Source: Chitinophagaceae bacterium
GTDB taxonomy: Bacteria > Bacteroidota > Bacteroidia > Chitinophagales > Chitinophagaceae
Direction of reading: 5' to 3'
Assembly (NCBI GenBank): GCA_019752295.1
Contig: JAIEMK010000012.1
Coordinates: 1 to 64,000 of the forward strand
Length of the DNA: 64,000 nt
Shown one piece after another: positions 3,194-12,881 of this stretch. The position numbers were made by a program, and so were the translations under genes. The notes under the pieces are model-generated. The model ran no database searches. It was not told where the DNA came from and worked only from the letters and a program-made list of their open reading frames with translations. How positions within the stretch are numbered: the first letter of the stretch is position 1; the number at the start of each line of letters is the position of its first letter.

Positions 3194-4018
3194 TTATTTA
3201 TTATTTGTTACTACAGTTTGTTTTAAACTAAATGGAATAGATTGGCCCATCACTTCAGTGGTTCCCTTAGCTTCAATAGTTGATTTCTTTTCTTTGATTA
3301 ACCCAGATTTTGTGTCTACTATTACTGTTCCTGAAGAAGTGGAAGTGGATGTAACAACAGCTTCCATGTTTTGCATACTTTTAGTCTTTTTAGAAGTTTC
3401 GCTCCCTTTAAATGTTAAGACAGCATCGTTGCCAGTGATTGATTCAACCGAATAGGTAATAGTTTTACTATTGTCCTTATCTGTAATATCGCCAACTACC
3501 ACTAAACTATCCCCAACTTTTATAGACGCAGGAATAGCTAAAAAACTCTCTTTAGCAACGTCATCTATATTGCCTCCTAATATATTCGATGCCGCTTCTT
3601 TTTCTGATTTGTCTTTATCTGATTTAAAAACAATTCCATCTACCGACATGCTTACCTCAAATGGCTTACCAATCACACCCTTTAACATTTGCCCTATTTG
3701 ACCATCTTTGTCTTCTTGTTTATCAGAGTCAAAATCGGTGCTGTTACCCATCGCCTCAGTATGTAATTGAAGACGTGTAACGGTATTGCTTAGTTCAATA
3801 TTGGGACTACTCTTTTTTACTTCCAAATCAACAGCTAGTTTTACATTGGATGTAATTTCCATCTCATTTCCCTGTACTGTTTGAACAATGGTGCTATTTT
3901 GGTTGGTTGTCTGCTGTATTTTTTGCCCGGCGGTAACAGAAATTCTATTCTGGCAATGCCCTATTGCTCCAATGAATAAGAATCCTGCCAACCCGATAAT
4001 AACTGATAAATGTTTCAT
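3194..4018 (-). CDS. DUF6263 family exported protein
   Basis: This is a 274-aa protein with a signal peptide (MKHLSVIIGLAGFLFIGAIGHCQ), followed by a long beta-rich domain that matches what I know of DUF6263: repeated Thr/Ser/Val strands and late motifs such as VDTKSGLIKEKKSTIEAKG. A Cys near the cleavage site is preceded by His, so a lipobox is unlikely. The start at 4018 lies 11 nt after the exporter stop; an upstream in-frame ATG at 4057 overlaps the exporter. The tight spacing suggests it is the last gene of the peptide-export operon. A role as immunity or export accessory is possible but unproven. Confidence 0.7.
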   Translation of the reverse strand: MKHLSVIIGLAGFLFIGAIGHCQNRISVTAGQKIQQTTNQNSTIVQTVQGNEMEITSNVKLAVDLEVKKSSPNIELSNTVTRLQLHTEAMGNSTDFDSDKQEDKDGQIGQMLKGVIGKPFEVSMSVDGIVFKSDKDKSEKEAASNILGGNIDDVAKESFLAIPASIKVGDSLVVVGDITDKDNSKTITYSVESITGNDAVLTFKGSETSKKTKSMQNMEAVVTSTSTSSGTVIVDTKSGLIKEKKSTIEAKGTTEVMGQSIPFSLKQTVVTNNK

Positions 4019-4029
4019 AGTATTTGTTT

Positions 4030-6198
4030 TTAAGCATGTAGAATTAAATCTTTCCAATAATCACTGTAAAGATTTTTACTTGTTAATAATGTTTGATGGT
4101 TTCCGGAAACAACAATTTGCTTATTTTCCAAAATGTAGATTCGATCGCAAAAAGTTCTAAGTACATGCAAACGGTGCGTTATAAATAGGATAGCCATTTT
4201 TTGTTTTAAACTAGCTAGAAGACGTAGAACAAAAAGTTCCGACTCCCTATCCATTGCTGCCGTAGCTTCATCTAAAATCAACAGCTCTGGTTTGTGATAT
4301 AGTGCCCTTGCTAGTGCAATCATTTGCTTTTGCCCCCCCGACAAATTAATACCTTCCTCACCAACTAATGTCATAACAGATTGAGGTAGGCTATCCATAA
4401 AAACATCGAAACCATATTCCTTTAAAAAATTCAATACTTCTTGTGGTTTTATTGCTGCATCATCAAATGCTATATTTTCTAGAACAGTGGCATTGAAAAT
4501 ATGAATCTGTTGAGGTACTACACTAACTATTTTCCGCCAACTATTAATTGAGATGTCTTTTAAAGAATTGCCTTGATTAACTATAATTTCTCCACTTTCG
4601 CATTCATAATGCTTTTGAATTATTTGTGAGATGGTACTTTTACCGCAGCCATTTTCTCCCATAATGGCAATTATTTCTCCTTTGCTTACCTTAAAAGAAA
4701 CATCTTTAAAAAGCGGACTCCTTCCGGCAAAACGAAATAAAACATGAGCAGCTTCTAACGACTGAAATGTTGCTATTTCTGTAGAATGATTATTTGCTTC
4801 AGGTTCAATACTAGTAAACTCAAACATCCTATCAAAAGCAATTTTGGCTTCATTAATGGGAATAGAAATTAAAGCTAGGTTTGCAATACTTGGTAATAAT
4901 GTGGAGCACATACCTAAAATTGCCATCAATTCCCCGGTTTTTAAATTACCGTATAGAACCTGATAGCTACTGTATAATAAAACGGCTAATAAAAAAAAGA
5001 TGCCAAAACCGTTTGCTATAAAACCAAGTCTGATCTGTATCTTACCAAGAGAAAAAATAGTATCCTGATATTTGCTGTATATTATATTATTGGTGCTGGC
5101 AAACAAATCTTGTTTACTGTAGTTTTTAATGGGCTCAATTCCTTGTAAGGTGGAAATGTAATTGGCTTCGCTCATAGCATAACTACTCATGATATTTCGC
5201 TGACCATCAATGATGCTTTTATTATGCTTATAAATAAGTATAAAGTAAACTGGTAATGCCAGCAGTGAGATTATTGCTATTTTCCAGGAATAAAAGAATA
5301 GAAAAACAAATACTACTAACGTAACCAGGGTATCAATTACTACATTCCCCGCTAACTGGCTGATGACTCTCTGTATTCTTGAGGTATCTGTTAACCTTGC
5401 GGTCAATTCTCCAATTTTACGGGTATCAAAAAAAGGCTTAGGCAATTGTAATAATTGAGAATAAAAACTACCAATAATTCTTGTATTAAAGTCTTTGGAT
5501 TGCCGCAGTAAAAAATACTGCCTCAATGCTGTTAAGCCTTCTTTGGCAACTAATAAGAAAAACACCAAAGCAATCCCTAGATTTAATTTACCAAAGTTTT
5601 TCTTTGGCAATATATCATCAATTAAACGTTGCGAGAATAAGCTCATTACAATACCAAGTACTGCAATTCCCACACCAATTGCTGCTGCAATAGATAATAG
5701 TGGAAGATCTTCTTTAATTAATTGCTTGATCCACTGTTTTTTTTGAATGGTAGTATCTTCTGCCTTTTTAAAATCTTTACTGGGTTCTAATGTTAGGCAG
5801 GTTTTAGATTGCCAAATAGCCGCTAATTCCTCACAAGATAAATAGATGATTCCTTTAGCTGGATCACCTATAATAAACTTAATTTCTCCATTCATCTCTG
5901 TTGTTCCAAAACAAACAACATAATGCTGCAATTGCATATCCATTATCACATGCAATATCACAGGGCTAGGGTGTTTAATTAGAGCTGCGATATCAGCCTC
6001 GCAACCCTCAGCAGTGAACCCAATTTGATTAGCTGCCTGATATAAACCTAACAATGTAGTACCTGTAATGTTTGTGCCGCTTAGCTTGCGAAGATTTTCT
6101 AAAGTATTATAACCACCATAGTATTTTATGACTGATATCAAACATGCCACGCCGCAATCAGATTCTCCTTGTTGTAATATAATTTCAGGACAGACCAT
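4030..6198 (-). CDS. peptidase-containing ABC exporter (C39, double-glycine peptides)
   Basis: A 722-aa protein with three parts. Residues 1-130 form a C39 cysteine peptidase with catalytic Cys15 (ESDCGVACL), His92 (QHYVVCFG) and Asp112 (GDPAKG). Residues 160-450 form a six-helix ABC transmembrane domain. Residues 480-722 form the ATPase, with Walker A GENGCGKST at 514-522, signature NLSGGQKQ, Walker B LLILDEATAAMD and H-loop ITHR. C39-ABC exporters cut substrates after GG in the leader and secrete the core. The two peptides encoded at 9526-9937 have exactly such leaders. The gene starts 1 nt after the thioredoxin-like gene and is clearly in its operon. Confidence 0.93.
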   Translation of the reverse strand: MVCPEIILQQGESDCGVACLISVIKYYGGYNTLENLRKLSGTNITGTTLLGLYQAANQIGFTAEGCEADIAALIKHPSPVILHVIMDMQLQHYVVCFGTTEMNGEIKFIIGDPAKGIIYLSCEELAAIWQSKTCLTLEPSKDFKKAEDTTIQKKQWIKQLIKEDLPLLSIAAAIGVGIAVLGIVMSLFSQRLIDDILPKKNFGKLNLGIALVFFLLVAKEGLTALRQYFLLRQSKDFNTRIIGSFYSQLLQLPKPFFDTRKIGELTARLTDTSRIQRVISQLAGNVVIDTLVTLVVFVFLFFYSWKIAIISLLALPVYFILIYKHNKSIIDGQRNIMSSYAMSEANYISTLQGIEPIKNYSKQDLFASTNNIIYSKYQDTIFSLGKIQIRLGFIANGFGIFFLLAVLLYSSYQVLYGNLKTGELMAILGMCSTLLPSIANLALISIPINEAKIAFDRMFEFTSIEPEANNHSTEIATFQSLEAAHVLFRFAGRSPLFKDVSFKVSKGEIIAIMGENGCGKSTISQIIQKHYECESGEIIVNQGNSLKDISINSWRKIVSVVPQQIHIFNATVLENIAFDDAAIKPQEVLNFLKEYGFDVFMDSLPQSVMTLVGEEGINLSGGQKQMIALARALYHKPELLILDEATAAMDRESELFVLRLLASLKQKMAILFITHRLHVLRTFCDRIYILENKQIVVSGNHQTLLTSKNLYSDYWKDLILHA

Positions 6199-6199
6199 T

Positions 6200-6697
6200 T
6201 TACTTTATATTGTCTAAAATTGTTTTTATTAATATTTCACCAGAATATTTATTAGTCAGAGTATCATTTTTATAAATATAAAAGGATGGAATAACACTAC
6301 TGCCAAACGTTTTTTGAAAATCAAAGGATGTGTCTATCATAATATTAAGGAATGGCATTCCTTTCAACCTGTAAGTTTCTGCAAAATCTATTACACTTTC
6401 CTTATCATCATTAGTAATCATATAGATTGTTGAATTAGAAAAGGCTTTTTTATTATTAATAATTTCAGAAGTCATGTATTTACAGTGGTCACAAAAAGGG
6501 GAAAAGAAATAAATAATTTTGTGTGCAGTTGTTTTTGAAGAGGAGTACTGGAAATATGAAAAAGGCAACTTAGGTAATATTTGTATTTCCTTTTGTATTG
6601 TATTTTTTTGTAAAATTTTTAAGTAAATAAGCACACTTAGTAATAAAAATGATATAGCAATTATTCCTCTTACAAAGCGAATTGATTTTTTTTTCAT
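6200..6697 (-). CDS. membrane-anchored thioredoxin-fold protein (CxxC)
   Basis: A 165-aa protein starting at the ATG at 6697, 1 nt past the upstream stop codon; the alternative at 6706 is TTG. One N-terminal transmembrane segment (about residues 7-28) places the rest outside the membrane. The body has the thioredoxin redox motif SPFCDHCKYM (Cys69, Cys72) and a cis-Pro loop SSVIPSFYIY (Pro137). It most resembles TlpA/AhpC-like periplasmic thiol-disulfide proteins. Its place next to a double-glycine peptide exporter, and the two Cys in each peptide core, suggest that it makes or isomerises disulfides in the exported peptides (inference). Confidence 0.8.
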   Translation of the reverse strand: MKKKSIRFVRGIIAISFLLLSVLIYLKILQKNTIQKEIQILPKLPFSYFQYSSSKTTAHKIIYFFSPFCDHCKYMTSEIINNKKAFSNSTIYMITNDDKESVIDFAETYRLKGMPFLNIMIDTSFDFQKTFGSSVIPSFYIYKNDTLTNKYSGEILIKTILDNIK

Positions 6698-6698
6698 C

Positions 6699-7337
6699 CT
6701 AAACAATTTGAATTAACAAAAAAGTTATCACTAACATCCACAATATCATTCCAATACCATAAGACTTCAAAACAAAAATGACACCATTAATATAGTTATT
6801 GGAAGTCTCCTTACTAATCAGTCGTGCGACTAGAAGGATATATATTAATTCATAAACATTTACAGTTAAAAATAAATAATTAAAAAACTGAGGAACACCT
6901 GATGAAAAAAAATATTTTAATGACATTGCAGTGTAGCCACTTATATCATCTAATTTTTCTGGCACAACAAATGTAAAATATATAACTTTCATAAACATTT
7001 GTATTACAAAGACAATTTCGCCGACTAATGCGATTTGTACTGCATTACGCCAGGTTAGTTTTGCATCAATAAAATATCCATAAGTAAAAAAACAAAAGGA
7101 TGAGAAAACTATTTTAATAAATAAATAAACAAGGAAAAATATATATTGCAAATAGCGCATTTTCTTTTGATGCTCTAATAATTCACTAATTCTTCGTTCA
7201 TTTAAGAATGCGCTATACGAATTGTAGAATAAATTTTCAGTAAAAATGTACTGATTTATATAGAGTAATAACACATAATATGTTGCTAATAGTATAAAAA
7301 ATGTTGTATAATTATTGAACTTTAAATTATTACCCAT
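6699..7337 (-). CDS. multi-pass membrane protein of unknown function
   Basis: A 212-aa, very hydrophobic protein with about five membrane segments (residues 12-30, 64-86, 98-122, 148-170 and 188-208) and few charged residues. Base composition is strongly AT-rich, like its neighbours. It overlaps none of the adjacent genes (gap of 6 nt upstream, 1 nt downstream) and is surely in the same transcript. No family was recognised. Small polytopic proteins next to bacteriocin exporters often act as immunity factors or maturation aids, so it is a candidate for either role. Confidence 0.6.
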   Translation of the reverse strand: MGNNLKFNNYTTFFILLATYYVLLLYINQYIFTENLFYNSYSAFLNERRISELLEHQKKMRYLQYIFFLVYLFIKIVFSSFCFFTYGYFIDAKLTWRNAVQIALVGEIVFVIQMFMKVIYFTFVVPEKLDDISGYTAMSLKYFFSSGVPQFFNYLFLTVNVYELIYILLVARLISKETSNNYINGVIFVLKSYGIGMILWMLVITFLLIQIV

Positions 7338-7343
7338 TAATAA

Positions 7344-8705
7344 TTAGTTTTTAAATTTTTCTAAAATTGAAACTCTATTTCTGGTATAGATTTTACCGGC
7401 TTTTGCAAATAGAAAGAAAGAAAGAATGAATGAAAATATAAAACACGATATTTTATAAATAATAGATTCAAAGTAAAGTTCAGTTGAAATACAAGTAACT
7501 AAGAGAATAGAGATCAAAGATGCCCAAGAGCTGGTTGAATTTTTCGAAAAAAAATTCTCACTTATATTAATAAAAAAATAAAATGAACTTATAAACGCAA
7601 ATGGTATTAAGAGAAGTATAGTTTGCCAATAAACTAAAATTAACCACCCTGTAGAATATTTGGTTATTTCAAATTTTCCAAATGGAAGATTTGAAAAAAT
7701 CAAAAAAAGAAATACGGAAAGCATAAAGTCAAGGAGGCAAATCTTTGATATAAGTAAAATATATTCTCGAAAAAGATTTTTTTTACTCATCCCGCTAATG
7801 TGAATATTTACATAAAGAGTTTGGTTTATTCCTATAAAATTATTAAACAAATAATTAAACCATAAAAGTGGTGAAAGGATTAGTGTCAAAAAAAAACTAT
7901 ACCCAAATATGAATTTATAAAAAATTATGGAAATAAGAGATGCTAAAATTATTTTAGAAACTATGGTAAAAGTAAAAATTGATCTTACACTTGAATTTTT
8001 TAGAAATGGAAAGGACACACGGCTTTTACTTGATTTTTTAGCCTGAATATTTTGCTTATGAAAGGTCTTCCTGAAATTAATTTTGCGAAGTGTTAGAAAA
8101 AAAAATAAAAATATAGCAAATATAAAAGTTGTATACTTAATAATATCTAGATCGCCATGCAAAAGAAAGAAATCTAAGAAAATCATTGTCAGACAAACAA
8201 GATAGGAGAGTTTAATTAAATCATTGTGTTGTATACTAAGTATAACACGTATACAAAAATTGATTGTTAAAATTGAAATTATAAATTGGACAAATATCAA
8301 GAACTCATAACCATTTAAACTGAATACTGCAATAGGTATTATAAATGCTGAAAAAAATAAAAACTTAATTGTTAGCACTTCATTTAAAAAGGTCAAAGTT
8401 ATTTTTTCTATGTTTTTCAGAGGGTAAATATTTATTAAAAGAGCGGTGCCAATTTTTTTAAGTCCAGGAAAAATTCCATGGAAAGAGTATAGAAAGACAG
8501 CTATAATGTATAAAACTTTAGCGGAGATATTTTTTCCGGTTTGTGTACATAAATATTTAAGCATCAAGCCATTGTATACTCCGAAAAGTAGCACAACTAT
8601 TGCCACGCAAATAACTAAGAAGGTATCAATTCTTTTATTGTCCGCAAAAACTCTTTTTCTCAATTTTATTAAAAAAAGGGACTCGTAAATTTTCAAATTA
8701 CTCAT
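7344..8705 (-). CDS. polytopic membrane protein, likely ABC permease
   Basis: A 453-aa, AT-rich and strongly hydrophobic protein with about ten to twelve predicted membrane segments. Its start codon abuts the stop codon of the ABC ATPase with no gap, the classic arrangement of an ATPase and its permease. The N-terminus (MSNLKIYESLFLIKLRKRVF) is short and cytosolic. The family was not recognised with certainty; it may be DUF5687-like, a Bacteroidota group that pairs with ABC ATPases. It probably forms a dedicated exporter or self-protection pump with the ATPase. Confidence 0.65.
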   Translation of the reverse strand: MSNLKIYESLFLIKLRKRVFADNKRIDTFLVICVAIVVLLFGVYNGLMLKYLCTQTGKNISAKVLYIIAVFLYSFHGIFPGLKKIGTALLINIYPLKNIEKITLTFLNEVLTIKFLFFSAFIIPIAVFSLNGYEFLIFVQFIISILTINFCIRVILSIQHNDLIKLSYLVCLTMIFLDFFLLHGDLDIIKYTTFIFAIFLFFFLTLRKINFRKTFHKQNIQAKKSSKSRVSFPFLKNSSVRSIFTFTIVSKIILASLISIIFYKFIFGYSFFLTLILSPLLWFNYLFNNFIGINQTLYVNIHISGMSKKNLFREYILLISKICLLDFMLSVFLFLIFSNLPFGKFEITKYSTGWLILVYWQTILLLIPFAFISSFYFFINISENFFSKNSTSSWASLISILLVTCISTELYFESIIYKISCFIFSFILSFFLFAKAGKIYTRNRVSILEKFKN

Positions 8706-9455
8706 TTAGTTTAACCAATTAATTTCTTCGAGGCTTTTATTTGTTTGTTTTGAATGCTCGATAAATTTTTCAAGTAAAGTCAACTTTTCACCTTTAAAAT
8801 CTTTCAGCAAGCCTGAATATTCAAGATTTTTATTATTTAGTACATGTATGTACTCAGCACATTCATCTACATAATTTATATCGTGTGATGTTAGAATAAT
8901 AATTTTATTTTTTAAGCTATTTAATAGGTTAATTAGTGCCTTTGCCGAAATTGGGTCGAGGCCGGAAAATGGTTCATCTAGAACAATGAGTGAAGGGTTA
9001 TGTGCCAAGGATGAAATTATTTCAACTTTTTTTTGCATTCCTGTAGATAATGAACCAATCGATTTTTGTGATATTCCATAATCATCAAAAAAATACATTA
9101 CTAAAGATTTAATCCTTTTTGTAGAAACCTCTCTTTTTAATTTATATAAATCGGCTAAAAAGTATAAATACTCTTCAATAGTTAGTTCAGGAATCAATTT
9201 ATTAATATCTGTAAACCCGCCGCTTATCAACTTAATCTTTACAGACTCTTCTTCGATTGAATATCTTAGCCCATCAATAAATACCTCCCCTTCAGTTGGC
9301 TCAATTAGATTCAATATTATGTTTAATAAAGTACTTTTCCCTGCTCCATTAATTCCTAAAATGCAATTGATACCTTCTCCAAATTTTAAGTTTATATTTT
9401 TTAAAACTTCTTTGGAATTATAATTCTTTGAAATCGATTTCAACAAAATTTCCAC
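8706..9455 (-). CDS. ABC transporter ATP-binding protein
   Basis: A 249-aa ATPase with Walker A (residues 34-42, GINGAGKST), signature LSTGMQKK, Walker B LIVLDEPFSGLDP and H-loop LTSHD. The start is GTG at 9455. The CcmA/ABC-2 type sequence matches drug or bacteriocin self-protection exporters such as NatA or BcrA. It is the first gene after the peptide genes and the hairpin at 9479-9513, and directly abuts its permease. It probably pumps the peptides, or a toxic product, out of the producer membrane. Confidence 0.9.
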   Translation of the reverse strand: MEILLKSISKNYNSKEVLKNINLKFGEGINCILGINGAGKSTLLNIILNLIEPTEGEVFIDGLRYSIEEESVKIKLISGGFTDINKLIPELTIEEYLYFLADLYKLKREVSTKRIKSLVMYFFDDYGISQKSIGSLSTGMQKKVEIISSLAHNPSLIVLDEPFSGLDPISAKALINLLNSLKNKIIILTSHDINYVDECAEYIHVLNNKNLEYSGLLKDFKGEKLTLLEKFIEHSKQTNKSLEEINWLN

Positions 9456-9478
9456 TATTTGATATTTTCAGATTAATT

Positions 9479-9513
9479 ACTAAAAGCCATTCTGCAATAG
9501 AATGGCTTTTAGT
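9479..9513 (-). terminator. 15-bp hairpin between peptide genes and export genes
   Basis: Perfect inverted arms at 9479-9493 and 9499-9513 enclose a 5-nt loop (GCAAT). On the transcribed strand the right half ends in CTTTTAGT without a long uridine run. Such a structure between precursor and export genes would reduce downstream expression and stabilise the precursor transcript, as in known class II bacteriocin operons. Confidence 0.7.
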
Positions 9514-9525
9514 AAATTGAAATAA

Positions 9526-9720
9526 TTATGCAGTTGCTAGTCCATAGATTGCACAACCAACTAAAGATACAGTTAAAACTGCACCACCAACACCTGTGAA
9601 GGCTGCTGCCCCTTTTAATAGATAGCCTGCAACTCCACCCACACCTAGTACAGCACAAAACCCTCCGAGCCAACTACCACCTTCAATTGTTTCCATTTTT
9701 GTCAATTCAATTTTTTTCAT
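9526..9720 (-). CDS. double-glycine leader bacteriocin-like peptide 1
   Basis: A 64-aa precursor. The leader MKKIELTKMETIEGG ends in Gly14-Gly15, and the predicted 49-aa core starts SWLGGFCAV. The core is very hydrophobic and Gly/Ala-rich, with several GxxxG-like spacings (VGGVAG, GVGGAV), one Lys, no acidic residue, and two Cys at core positions 7 and 41. This fits class IIb (two-peptide) bacteriocins such as the lactobin/cerein 7B group. Its partner lies 25 nt upstream on the same strand. No SD sequence is visible. Which side of the pair is active cannot be told from the sequence. Confidence 0.85.
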   Translation of the reverse strand: MKKIELTKMETIEGGSWLGGFCAVLGVGGVAGYLLKGAAAFTGVGGAVLTVSLVGCAIYGLATA

Positions 9721-9745
9721 CGTAATTCATTTTTATTGTTAAAAT

Positions 9746-9937
9746 TTATTTTATTGCTGCTGCAATGGTTAAGCCAATACAAGTAGGCCCGAAAAGTGCA
9801 GCGGAAACTGCAAATCCAAAAGGCCCAAAAAAGGCCCCTGTAACAGCTGCGGCGCAAGCACCACCAGCTATAGTAGACATTTGAGTCCATGAACCGCCGG
9901 TAATTGATTCAATTTTTTTCTGACTTAATTTTTTCAT
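9746..9937 (-). CDS. double-glycine leader bacteriocin-like peptide 2
   Basis: A 63-aa precursor. The leader MKKLSQKKIESITGG ends in GG, and the 48-aa core starts SWTQMSTIAGG. The core is Ala/Gly/Phe-rich with two Cys at core positions 13 and 38, two Pro in GPFG and FGPT, and a final Lys. Both peptides open their core with Ser-Trp directly after GG and have related leaders, so they are probably ancient duplicates. It is the first gene of the operon, 25 nt before peptide 1. The long leader region between it and the regulator gene presumably holds the promoter. Confidence 0.85.
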   Translation of the reverse strand: MKKLSQKKIESITGGSWTQMSTIAGGACAAAVTGAFFGPFGFAVSAALFGPTCIGLTIAAAIK

Positions 9938-10225: not shown

Positions 10226-10963
10226 TTATGGAAGAATATGATTATCATAGGCAAAACTGATAAGCTGCGCTAAACTTTTTACTTCAAACCTTTTATAAAG
10301 CGGAAGAATTCTTTTTTCTATCGCCGACTGAGTTACCTTAAACTGATCCGCTATTTCTTTGTAGGAATACCCTTTGCTCACTAATTCCAATGCTTCTTTT
10401 TCCTTGATGGATATGGCACAATACTCAAATAAAACCTTATTTAGTTCTTCCTCAAATTTTGATTTATCGGGGCCATAAGCTGCATAGCGCATTACTTTAC
10501 CAAATTTGATACTTCGATTAATTTGAGAGCGACCAATAATTTCAGTTACCTTCCCATTTTCAGCTTTTAACACCCCGACTCTGGAAATCAAGGGCACTTT
10601 AGTACCATTTTTATGCATTTTTTTTAACTCTATCGTAAAACTATATTTTTCCAAATCTTTTGTTTTAGATTGGATAAATAGCAATGCCTTATCATTCAAT
10701 TCATTTGAAAAAGCAGCATATTTTGGAGTAGTAATATTAGTGATGGTAAGCATATTGATTTCATCATCACGATATCCTAATAATTCTTCCCAATTACTTG
10801 CATAAATCATCTTACCTAATTTAAAAGAATAGATATACACAGCTTCTTCGGGAAATAGGGGGATTGTGTTTTTATAATGCAGCGCTTCCTCGCTGTTCAA
10901 ATCGGCTGGAATACCAGTGATATGAGACTTTGAGTAATCACCATAAGTAGCTTTGGAAATCAT
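10226..10963 (-). CDS. PAS-domain LuxR-type transcriptional regulator
   Basis: A 245-aa protein with an N-terminal PAS-like sensor region (about residues 40-150, with YSFKLGKMIYASNWEELLGY and a later GKVTEIIGRSQ strand) and a C-terminal LuxR/FixJ helix-turn-helix (about residues 185-240: ALELVSKGYSYKEIADQFKV, then a recognition helix TQSAIEKRI). No receiver domain and no acyl-homoserine-lactone domain is seen. It lies just upstream of and parallel to the peptide operon and is probably its local regulator, although this is inferred from position only. The PAS ligand or redox input is unknown. Confidence 0.8.
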   Translation of the reverse strand: MISKATYGDYSKSHITGIPADLNSEEALHYKNTIPLFPEEAVYIYSFKLGKMIYASNWEELLGYRDDEINMLTITNITTPKYAAFSNELNDKALLFIQSKTKDLEKYSFTIELKKMHKNGTKVPLISRVGVLKAENGKVTEIIGRSQINRSIKFGKVMRYAAYGPDKSKFEEELNKVLFEYCAISIKEKEALELVSKGYSYKEIADQFKVTQSAIEKRILPLYKRFEVKSLAQLISFAYDNHILP

Positions 10964-11044: not shown

Positions 11045-11077
11045 TTTGCTTTCTTAAGCACCACTTCTTTACTTTTG
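11045..11077 (+). promoter_or_regulatory. -33/-7 promoter of the ABC exporter operon
   Basis: TTTG at 11045-11048 and TACTTTTG at 11070-11077, separated by 21 nt, match the Bacteroidota consensus TTTG and TAnnTTTG (normal spacing about 19, range 17-23). Transcription should start near 11084, giving a leader of only about 9 nt before the ATG at 11093. Confidence 0.7.
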
Positions 11078-11092
11078 TGGTTATACAGTAAA

Positions 11093-12028
11093 ATGCAACA
11101 AATCGTTCAGGTAACTGGCCTCACTAAACAGTTCAAAAATCTTACAGCAGTTAATGACCTGTCTTTTTCGGTGAATGAAGGAGACGTTTATGGTTTTCTG
11201 GGGCAGAATGGTGCAGGTAAAAGCACCACTATCCGCATGATGCTTAGTTTGATTGAACCCACATTTGGAAACATTCAAATGTTTGGAATGGATCTTGAAA
11301 AACATAGAAGAGAAATTTTAAGAAATGTGGGAGCCGTTATTGAAAAACCCGACGTGTACAAATACCTCTCGGCATACGATAACCTGCAACTATTTGCCCG
11401 CCTGAGCGGAATAAAGCCAACACAGAAATTGATTATGGACCAATTGGAAATGGTTGGTTTAAGAAATAGAGCTGAAGACAAAGTAAAGACATTCTCGCAG
11501 GGAATGAAACAAAGACTGGGTATCGCAATTGCGCTGATACACAATCCACAACTGATTATTTTGGATGAACCCACAAACGGTTTGGATCCGCAGGGAATTG
11601 CAGACATCCGTAATTTAATTTTACAGCTCAGCAGAGAGTTCAAAAAAACGATTATCGTTTCATCTCATTTGCTGAACGAGATTGAACAAATAGCCACTCG
11701 TTTGTTGATCATCGACAAGGGCGAAAAACTGGTGGAAGGAAACGCTACTACATTATTCGATCCTGCCCAAACCATTGTTGAAATACAAACCCTCGATAAT
11801 TTTTATGCACTGATGCAATTGAAAGGCAGTAAATGGGCCGACATGCTGCAGAAAAGCAACAACAATGCCATTCTGCTGAAAGTAGATAGAAAACTCATTC
11901 CAACACTGCATGCCGACCTTGCTGCCATGCGTATTCAGTTAATCTCTTTGCAGCCACGTAATTCTTTGGAAGACTATTTTTTACAAGTAACATCCGGTAA
12001 TCAACATGTGGACACTTATTCAAATTGA
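11093..12028 (+). CDS. ABC-2 type transporter ATP-binding protein
   Basis: A 311-aa ATPase starting at 11093; the upstream ATG at 11075 lies at the promoter -7 box. Walker A GQNGAGKST is at residues 37-45, followed by signature FSQGMKQRLG, Walker B LIILDEPTNGLDP and H-loop VSSHLL. Residues 225-311 form a C-terminal extension typical of the NatA/CcmA ABC-2 group (type DUF4162). It overlaps the permease gene by 23 nt. The exported substrate is unknown. Confidence 0.93.
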   Translation: MQQIVQVTGLTKQFKNLTAVNDLSFSVNEGDVYGFLGQNGAGKSTTIRMMLSLIEPTFGNIQMFGMDLEKHRREILRNVGAVIEKPDVYKYLSAYDNLQLFARLSGIKPTQKLIMDQLEMVGLRNRAEDKVKTFSQGMKQRLGIAIALIHNPQLIILDEPTNGLDPQGIADIRNLILQLSREFKKTIIVSSHLLNEIEQIATRLLIIDKGEKLVEGNATTLFDPAQTIVEIQTLDNFYALMQLKGSKWADMLQKSNNNAILLKVDRKLIPTLHADLAAMRIQLISLQPRNSLEDYFLQVTSGNQHVDTYSN

Positions 12029-12881
12029 GCTCTATAAAATATTCCGAAGGCCAAGAACCTATATTGCTTTTGTTGCCATTGCTGCACTGATAAGCATTAT
12101 ACAGTTCGGATTAAAATTAGACGGTAAAAGCTATGCCGATTTTTTAATGAAGGACATTGGTGGATCGATGGAAATTGATGGCAATATCATTAATGGGTAT
12201 CTGATCTGTTATATTATGCTGCAACTTTTGCTGGTGCATGTTCCCTTGCTGGTTGCACTGATATCGGCGGATATGATTTCGGGAGAAGCCAATATGGGTA
12301 CACTTCGATTGTTATTATCGAAGCCTTATAGCCGAACCGAATTATTGCTGGCCAAATTTTTTGCTTCAACCGTGTATACCATCATGCTATTGGTATGGTT
12401 GGCCATTCTGGCTTTATTTGTAAGCATGTGGATTTTTGGGGTAGGCGATATGTTTTTGATGAAGAGCAGCTATGTAGTTTTGATTAGTCAGAACGATGTA
12501 TTCTGGCGTTATGCAGGAGCATTCCTGTTTGCTACTTTGGCAATGATTACGGTGTCTGCTTTGGGTTTCTTTCTTTCGATCTTTGCAGAGAATAGCATTG
12601 GTCCCATTGTAGCAACCATGAGCATCATTGTATTCTTTACAATCCTAAGTACATTGAATATCCCCATCTTTAATGCACTAAAACCATATTTATTTACAAC
12701 ACACCTGATAAGCTGGAAAGAATTCTTTGATCTGAAAGTAAATGATTCCAATGAAGCGATCATGGGTAGTATTCAAAACCCGCAAAGAATTATCAACTCG
12801 GCATTGGTTTTGATTGTACATATTCTTGCCTTTCTGGGTGCTTCTATCTGGATCTTTAACAAAAAAGATGTGTTGAGTTAG
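12006..12881 (+). CDS. ABC-2 type transporter permease
   Basis: A 291-aa membrane protein whose start overlaps the ATPase gene. It shows the ABC-2 pattern: a short cytosolic amphipathic start (MWTLIQIELYKIFRRPRTYI), a first membrane helix, then MISGEANMGTLRLLLSKPYSRTEL, the typical ABC-2 cytoplasmic loop, followed by five more membrane helices. Together with the upstream ATPase it forms a two-component exporter of the NatAB type. The substrate cannot be told from the sequence. Confidence 0.9.
   Translation: MWTLIQIELYKIFRRPRTYIAFVAIAALISIIQFGLKLDGKSYADFLMKDIGGSMEIDGNIINGYLICYIMLQLLLVHVPLLVALISADMISGEANMGTLRLLLSKPYSRTELLLAKFFASTVYTIMLLVWLAILALFVSMWIFGVGDMFLMKSSYVVLISQNDVFWRYAGAFLFATLAMITVSALGFFLSIFAENSIGPIVATMSIIVFFTILSTLNIPIFNALKPYLFTTHLISWKEFFDLKVNDSNEAIMGSIQNPQRIINSALVLIVHILAFLGASIWIFNKKDVLS

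Follow-up and report, generated by a model that had tools for sequence, protein, structure and literature searches.

What does a cluster encode that joins two small double-glycine (GG) peptide precursors to a thioredoxin-fold protein and a peptidase-bearing exporter, and how much of it has been described before? We addressed this question for a locus in a Chitinophagaceae bacterium (phylum Bacteroidota, Sediminibacterium-like; GenBank assembly GCA_019752295.1), which lies in the first 64,000 nucleotides (nt) of contig JAIEMK010000012.1, the stretch that was analysed and that is called the window here. The locus is probably a bacteroidetocin-type (class IIf) operon for a disulfide-closed two-peptide bacteriocin, with an ATP-binding cassette (ABC) ATPase and its permease partner as the probable immunity function. 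The export machinery is already known from gut bacteroidetocins; the recurring two-peptide cargo of disulfide type, with a probable ABC immunity pair, appears to be new as far as the literature searched extends. Three further features look new as well: the prevalence of two-Cys, Gly/Ala-rich cores beside this machinery, the mosaic make-up of the block upstream of C39 and a strong hairpin after pepB.

Gene content and the export module

A sequence-only reading of the window had proposed a complete GG locus with two precursors, both cores starting Ser-Trp, and machinery genes downstream of them, and all of this is found on the minus strand between 9937 and 3194. The same reading counted seven genes on one strand with gaps of 0 to 70 nt; the single strand stands, but there are eight genes; M212 and TRX overlap by 8 nt, and the widest gap, 70 nt, separates pepB from the ATPase gene. 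In 5' to 3' order, with the intervening stem-loop and an upstream regulator gene, the features are:

9746..9937, minus strand: pepA, alpha-type precursor; 15-residue GG leader MKKLSQKKIESITGG and a 48-residue hydrophobic, Gly/Ala-rich core with two Cys
9526..9720, minus strand: pepB, beta-type precursor; 15-residue GG leader MKKIELTKMETIEGG and a 49-residue core with two Cys
9477..9515, minus strand: stem-loop of 17 bp, after the peptide genes and ahead of the machinery genes
8706..9455, minus strand: ABC ATPase, DrrA/LanF-like (ABC_tran domain match)
7344..8705, minus strand: M453, polytopic permease paired with the ATPase (without a Pfam match)
6699..7337, minus strand: M212, protein with five transmembrane (TM) segments, YknW/Yip1-related, homologous to the TM gene of bacteroidetocin-type loci
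6200..6706, minus strand: TRX, membrane-anchored thioredoxin-fold protein, ResA/TlpA-like (Thioredoxin domain match, CDHC active site)
4030..6198, minus strand: C39 peptidase/ABC exporter (Peptidase_C39, ABC_membrane and ABC_tran)
3194..4018, minus strand: DUF6263 secreted protein, accessory (DUF6263 domain match; likely ATG start at 4018)
10226..10963, minus strand: regulator with PAS and LuxR-type helix-turn-helix domains, directly upstream; link to the locus putative

The domain search gave no match for either polytopic protein, permease M453 or M212. In the window's exporter the C39 residues Cys15, His92 and Asp112 are conserved, and Walker A, LSGGQ and Walker B are intact.

The analysis used the best 80 of 230 related stretches that a search of approximately 85,000 species genomes with the C39 peptidase domain returned. 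Profiles for M212, TRX and C39, together termed the triad here, all match at 69 of these 80 loci across Bacteroidota, and several of the other 11 are cut by contig ends or frameshifts. No HlyD gene is encoded at the window's locus, and 78 of the 80 loci are free of an HlyD-type adaptor gene within 4 kb; at locus L124 the HlyD adaptor belongs to a second C39 exporter. The possibility that HlyD was overlooked by a weak search was rejected, since the profile used did detect HlyD at 20 control C39 loci. In the C39 tree the exporters of triad context, including those of the window, L217 and L218, group together in a clade of 80 members (support 0.985) from which HlyD-type C39s are excluded. The exact placement of the L217 protein is uncertain, given its long branch and an identity of only approximately 31% to the window's protein. 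DUF6263 is present at three of the 80 loci besides the window. A search for plasmid or viral copies returned two remote Flammeovirga plasmid matches (approximately 35% identity) and no viral match.

The sequence-only reading had regarded a two-peptide Bacteroidota locus of this gene order that includes a thioredoxin-like protein as undescribed. For GG loci with such a protein this was mistaken: the bacteroidetocin (class IIf) module published by Coyne et al. in 2019 combines a small GG peptide with an unknown 5-TM protein, a thiol oxidoreductase and a C39 exporter (PMC6671954). Deletion of the TM, peptide or thiol oxidoreductase gene lowers toxin activity, these three being needed for full activity, and the four genes suffice for activity in E. 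coli (PMC6671954). Our comparison with the published type was made through L216, L217 and L218, which are loci of that type, and not through the bacteroidetocin A/B loci themselves. At all three a four-Cys peptide of the KFWG type directly follows the TM gene and the same M212 and C39 profiles match; the TRX profile, scored at L217 only, matches there with 67 bits. If the locus works as we propose, the ABC exporter would carry pepA and pepB across the inner membrane, its C39 domain cutting off their 15-residue leaders after Gly-Gly in the course of transport, and export would proceed without an adaptor of the HlyD type encoded at the locus.

The two peptides and their cysteines

Each core contains exactly two Cys, at positions 13 and 38 of pepA and 7 and 41 of pepB (core numbering). 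With leaders found by a cysteine-blind score, 77 distinct peptides with 15-residue leaders were recognized at triad loci, and two Cys are present in 68 of them, four in 5, three in 1 and none in 3. The two Cys enclose a median of 78% of the core, compared with 28% under random placement. The control set, which is small, comprised HlyD-linked C39 exporters of the same genus, two of them in this genome; these are without TRX or M212, nine of ten nearby peptides are without Cys, and the leaders are mostly of 25–28 residues. Because of this contrast between triad loci and HlyD-linked C39 loci, TRX can be linked to cysteine pairs. Besides the VKOR-containing cluster described below, this genome has two HlyD-type C39 exporters (G000:C86 and G000:C34; L042, L043) with Cys-free peptides and long leaders.

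In the proposed mechanism, TRX together with M212 would form one intramolecular disulfide per peptide in the periplasm, Cys13-Cys38 in pepA and Cys7-Cys41 in pepB, so that each hydrophobic core would become a closed, stapled hairpin of helices. A low-confidence model of pepB (predicted local distance difference test, pLDDT, 63) has two helices, 16-36 and 44-63; Cys22 and Cys56 of the precursor would lie at about the same level of a hairpin, which is suggestive only.

Homologues of pepA and pepB occur in the same order beside the same machine in other genomes, for which reason chance open reading frames were rejected as an origin of the peptides. In a shuffle-corrected comparison against all other cores, each peptide had one clear match, and the two matches stand side by side, in the same order, in Flavobacterium segetis (L102; z 10.1 and 43% full-length identity for pepA, z 6.8 and 47% for pepB). 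PepB belongs to a wider beta type with the pattern GFC...WNPxG...C, and a beta peptide is preceded, approximately 160–240 nt upstream, by another Cys-containing GG-type peptide at L057, L125, L068, L094, L109, L201, L071 and L102. Tandem peptides were found at 8 of 12 beta loci and at 6 of 46 others (Fisher p 5e-4), a test that is tilted by the seeding of the beta set from a pair. Among 151 relatives searched, five other genomes had matches to both the alpha and the beta profile. Three of these (G010, G037, G065) have both matches on one and the same peptide, where shared leaders may carry the scores, and the other two (G046 and G013) have them on two adjacent genes. At L032, in G046, the window layout of alpha, beta, hairpin, ATPase, permease, M212, TRX and C39 is repeated, with a stop interrupting the M212 gene; G013 keeps alpha, beta with stops and an M212 remnant. 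An iterated alpha-type profile over all peptides drifted to unlike sequences and its E-values were not used. The sequence-only reading would have been undermined had the two peptides been unconserved beside C39 exporters elsewhere; both types are conserved at the eight beta loci named above and at L032. Judged by sequence, pepA and pepB are a recurring alpha/beta pair in fixed order, that is, two adjacent, dissimilar GG-leader peptides that are conserved as a pair, as is characteristic of class IIb. We propose that pepA and pepB would jointly attack the envelope of competing Bacteroidota.

These comparisons also bear on the possibility that the locus makes two independent, one-peptide bacteroidetocin-like bacteriocins that share one export machine, with duplication and the stacking of cargo genes, not joint action, having made them neighbours. 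At most triad loci there is a single peptide and at some, such as L066, there are three, and Coyne et al. listed 36 peptides in 35 regions, with tandem peptides and no claim of a pair (PMC6671954). Against this, pair order and type are kept in Sediminibacterium, Flavobacterium and others, and the partners are unlike each other, so that we regard independent action as unlikely.

The composition of the cores raises another alternative, namely that the peptides are not toxins that diffuse freely but surface-held aggregates or signals, like the contact-dependent Cdz glycine-zipper proteins of Caulobacter, and that TRX and M212 fold them for display. The cores are hydrophobic and Gly/Ala-rich, with a grand average of hydropathy (GRAVY) of 1.2–1.5, and there are two small proteins per locus, for which Cdz is a precedent (PMC5380434). 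Cdz proteins, however, are secreted by a type I system on RTX-like signals, and searches for them leave out zippers that contain Cys, in contrast to the C39-type leaders, paired Cys and lack of HlyD here. Glycine zippers are only modestly above shuffled sequences (48 against a mean of 35, the highest shuffle having 49), and GxxxG, considered as a class IIb helix-helix signature and present in 56 of 77 peptides, shows no excess over composition (shuffle mean 53). We consider a Cdz-like role quite improbable.

Other peptide arrangements were seen beside the same module. The Aquimarina loci L088 and L092 have approximately ten GG-type precursors in runs upstream of it, several with 23-residue leaders of the KKLNLKKMNIAQLDSLKGG kind, a different family mixed with two-Cys peptides. 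At L203 (G217) five small precursors stand in tandem before an M212-TRX-C39 module; four have four Cys, and two have very similar short cores, LPEE.G.IICLPFICPPGQ.

Proposed folding partners, probable self-protection and a likely mosaic origin

TRX has an N-terminal membrane anchor, an invariant CxxC and a cis-Pro loop (IPSF), and its sequence is closest to ResA-type thiol-disulfide oxidoreductases. The genome encodes two DsbD/CcdA proteins, which are reductants, and no DsbB, and its only VKOR sits in another C39 cluster; because DsbB is absent and the VKOR lies elsewhere, an oxidising role of TRX is left without an obvious partner. TRX might therefore act as a reductase or isomerase and undo disulfides that are wrong or intermolecular, the intramolecular bond being made by air or another oxidant, and the inclusion of ResA among its closest solved relatives agrees with this. 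Conversely, the TRX gene is strongly associated with cores of even Cys number, and Coyne et al. inferred that the thiol oxidoreductase forms the bonds, since Bacteroides is without a general oxidising system (PMC6671954). A reductase or isomerase role, which would be compatible with the bacteroidetocin-type reading, seems to us rather unlikely. The second redox-linked cluster of this genome (G000:C39:741-6344; L045, L175) has a 553-residue VKOR-domain protein beside an HlyD-type adaptor and a C39 exporter.

The M212 model (mean pLDDT 93.9) has approximately five membrane helices, and comparison with the PDB gave no strong structural match, a result without bearing on homology. Members of the family match NCBIfam YknW in 22 of 72 cases and Pfam Yip1 in 6 of 72. 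A DsbB/VKOR-like redox partner was rejected as an identity for M212, which has one Cys and whose family has no nearly invariant Cys column. Relatives of M212 were present in 20 of 395 genomes in a class-wide sample, and the surrounding regions also contained a full C39 exporter in 8 of these 20, L216, L217 and L218 among them. At L206 and L207 (G509, G450) an M212 relative adjoins a protein of 453–479 residues with a C39-type N-terminal half, near a two-Cys GG peptide ending GPSCLGWW; here the M212 family may take part in a further kind of peptide export.

Approximately one locus in eight has an ABC ATPase gene upstream of M212, and weak homologues of permease M453 occupy the same position at L031 and L032. 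Because the ABC pair occurs at so small a share of loci, an accessory role linked to the cargo, such as immunity, suits it better than a part in core export, and it is a probable self-protection pump that would protect the producing cell by expelling the peptides. Near the operon but outside it, the plus strand of the window encodes another pair at 11075-12881, an ABC ATPase and an ABC-2 type permease.

The hairpin after pepB (17 bp, -23.6 kcal/mol) has a shuffle-derived z score of -7.4; hairpins at other loci are given by folding energy alone. Of 17 other loci, 10 have a strong hairpin (-17 kcal/mol or below) 3' of their last peptide gene, as does L032, and these hairpins are unrelated in sequence; L125, L109, L057, L104, L047, L119 and L099 have weaker ones. 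We infer an attenuator or RNA-stability element, which would hold peptide mRNA above machinery mRNA.

Identities along the operon differ by gene. Between the window and its genus-mates or near relatives (L047, L048, L049, L035), C39 is 77–85% identical, TRX 19–34% and M212 17–23%, while in 85 pairs of loci with a C39 identity of 75–95%, TRX and M212 both average 57%. The G+C content is 25–28% from TRX to the ATPase, against 34–36% in C39 and DUF6263. Exchange of a block upstream of a resident C39 gene explains both contrasts best, the alternative being a locally raised rate of change. When peptide similarity was correlated with M212/TRX identity and with C39 identity, no useful difference emerged.

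The reading of the locus as a bacteroidetocin-type two-peptide operon has several observations to contend with: the ResA likeness of TRX and the redox complement of the genome described above, the single peptides at most triad loci, the weakness of alpha-type similarity beyond its closest members, the weakness of the pepB model, the infrequency of the ABC pair and the absence of an immunity gene from the published module. Peptide activity, disulfides and cleavage are moreover predictions here. In its favour are the gene content, the homologies, the association statistics and the conservation of the pair, all obtained directly; from these we infer cleavage, disulfides, the direction of the redox step, cooperation, killing, immunity and passage across the outer membrane.

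A more far-reaching version would make such loci a distinct Bacteroidota branch, in which the pairing of alpha and beta peptides is obligate, each peptide is stapled by one N-to-C disulfide into a hydrophobic hairpin, an exchangeable block of peptide, immunity, M212 and TRX genes precedes a conserved adaptor-less C39, M212 and TRX are folding partners matched to their cargo, and the ABC pair is the first immunity system for peptides of bacteroidetocin type. We put this forward tentatively, as a possibility with rather less than even chances.

Comparison with known systems

Scores of loci in Flavobacteriaceae, Chitinophagaceae and other Bacteroidota are now seen to carry the bacteroidetocin-type machine; two-Cys hydrophobic cores form a large class among them, and a peptide pair recurs. 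They supply candidates, open to experiment, for toxins made of two peptides, for a dedicated disulfide-handling step during peptide export and for the immunity function that the class has lacked. A recurring two-peptide form of the module was not found in the literature searched, coverage of which left out most subscription papers and preprints.

Of the known systems, the YknWXYZ efflux system for SDP in Bacillus (PMC4887032) resembles the locus in that M212 relatives match YknW; it exports a toxin for self-protection, whereas the bacteroidetocin TM gene is needed for production instead. The contact-dependent Cdz system likewise consists of two small, glycine-rich, hydrophobic proteins in a Gram-negative host, and its authors compare it with class IIb, but it has RTX-like signals, canonical type I secretion with an adaptor and no thioredoxin, and Cys zippers are excluded from its family (PMC5380434); the window's peptides have a GG leader and paired Cys, with no HlyD at the locus. 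The class IIb two-peptide bacteriocins of Gram-positive bacteria share adjacent small GG-leader precursors and hydrophobic helical cores, and pepA passes the cut-off of NCBIfam TIGR03949 (class IIb, lactobin A/cerein 7B) with 23.1 bits against 21.5; pepB gave no match to this model. Unlike class IIb, the locus sits in a Gram-negative host, both of its peptides have paired Cys, TRX and M212 are dedicated to it, and its leaders have 15 residues.

The closest likeness is to the bacteroidetocins, which were described from 19 peptides and are best studied in Bacteroidales. The leaders of 15 residues (15–16 expected), the predicted cores of 48 and 49 residues (42–53) with at least two Cys, the adjacent 5-TM homologue, the adjacent thiol oxidoreductase (found in most described regions) and a C39 exporter of the same lineage all agree with class IIf, as does a four-gene set without HlyD. 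The founding bacteroidetocins have Lys after GG and four Cys, and their wider family includes weakly similar two-Cys cores (PMC6671954); the Ser-Trp start and two Cys of the window's peptides set them apart from the A/B-like core and leave membership of the wider family unaffected. No immunity gene was found at bacteroidetocin loci, and the TM gene gave no protection in the published test (PMC6671954), whereas the window adds an ABC exporter pair and DUF6263. Where bacteroidetocin loci place one four-Cys core between the TM and TRX genes, the window has two dissimilar, two-Cys, hydrophobic Gly/Ala-rich cores that come first in the operon.

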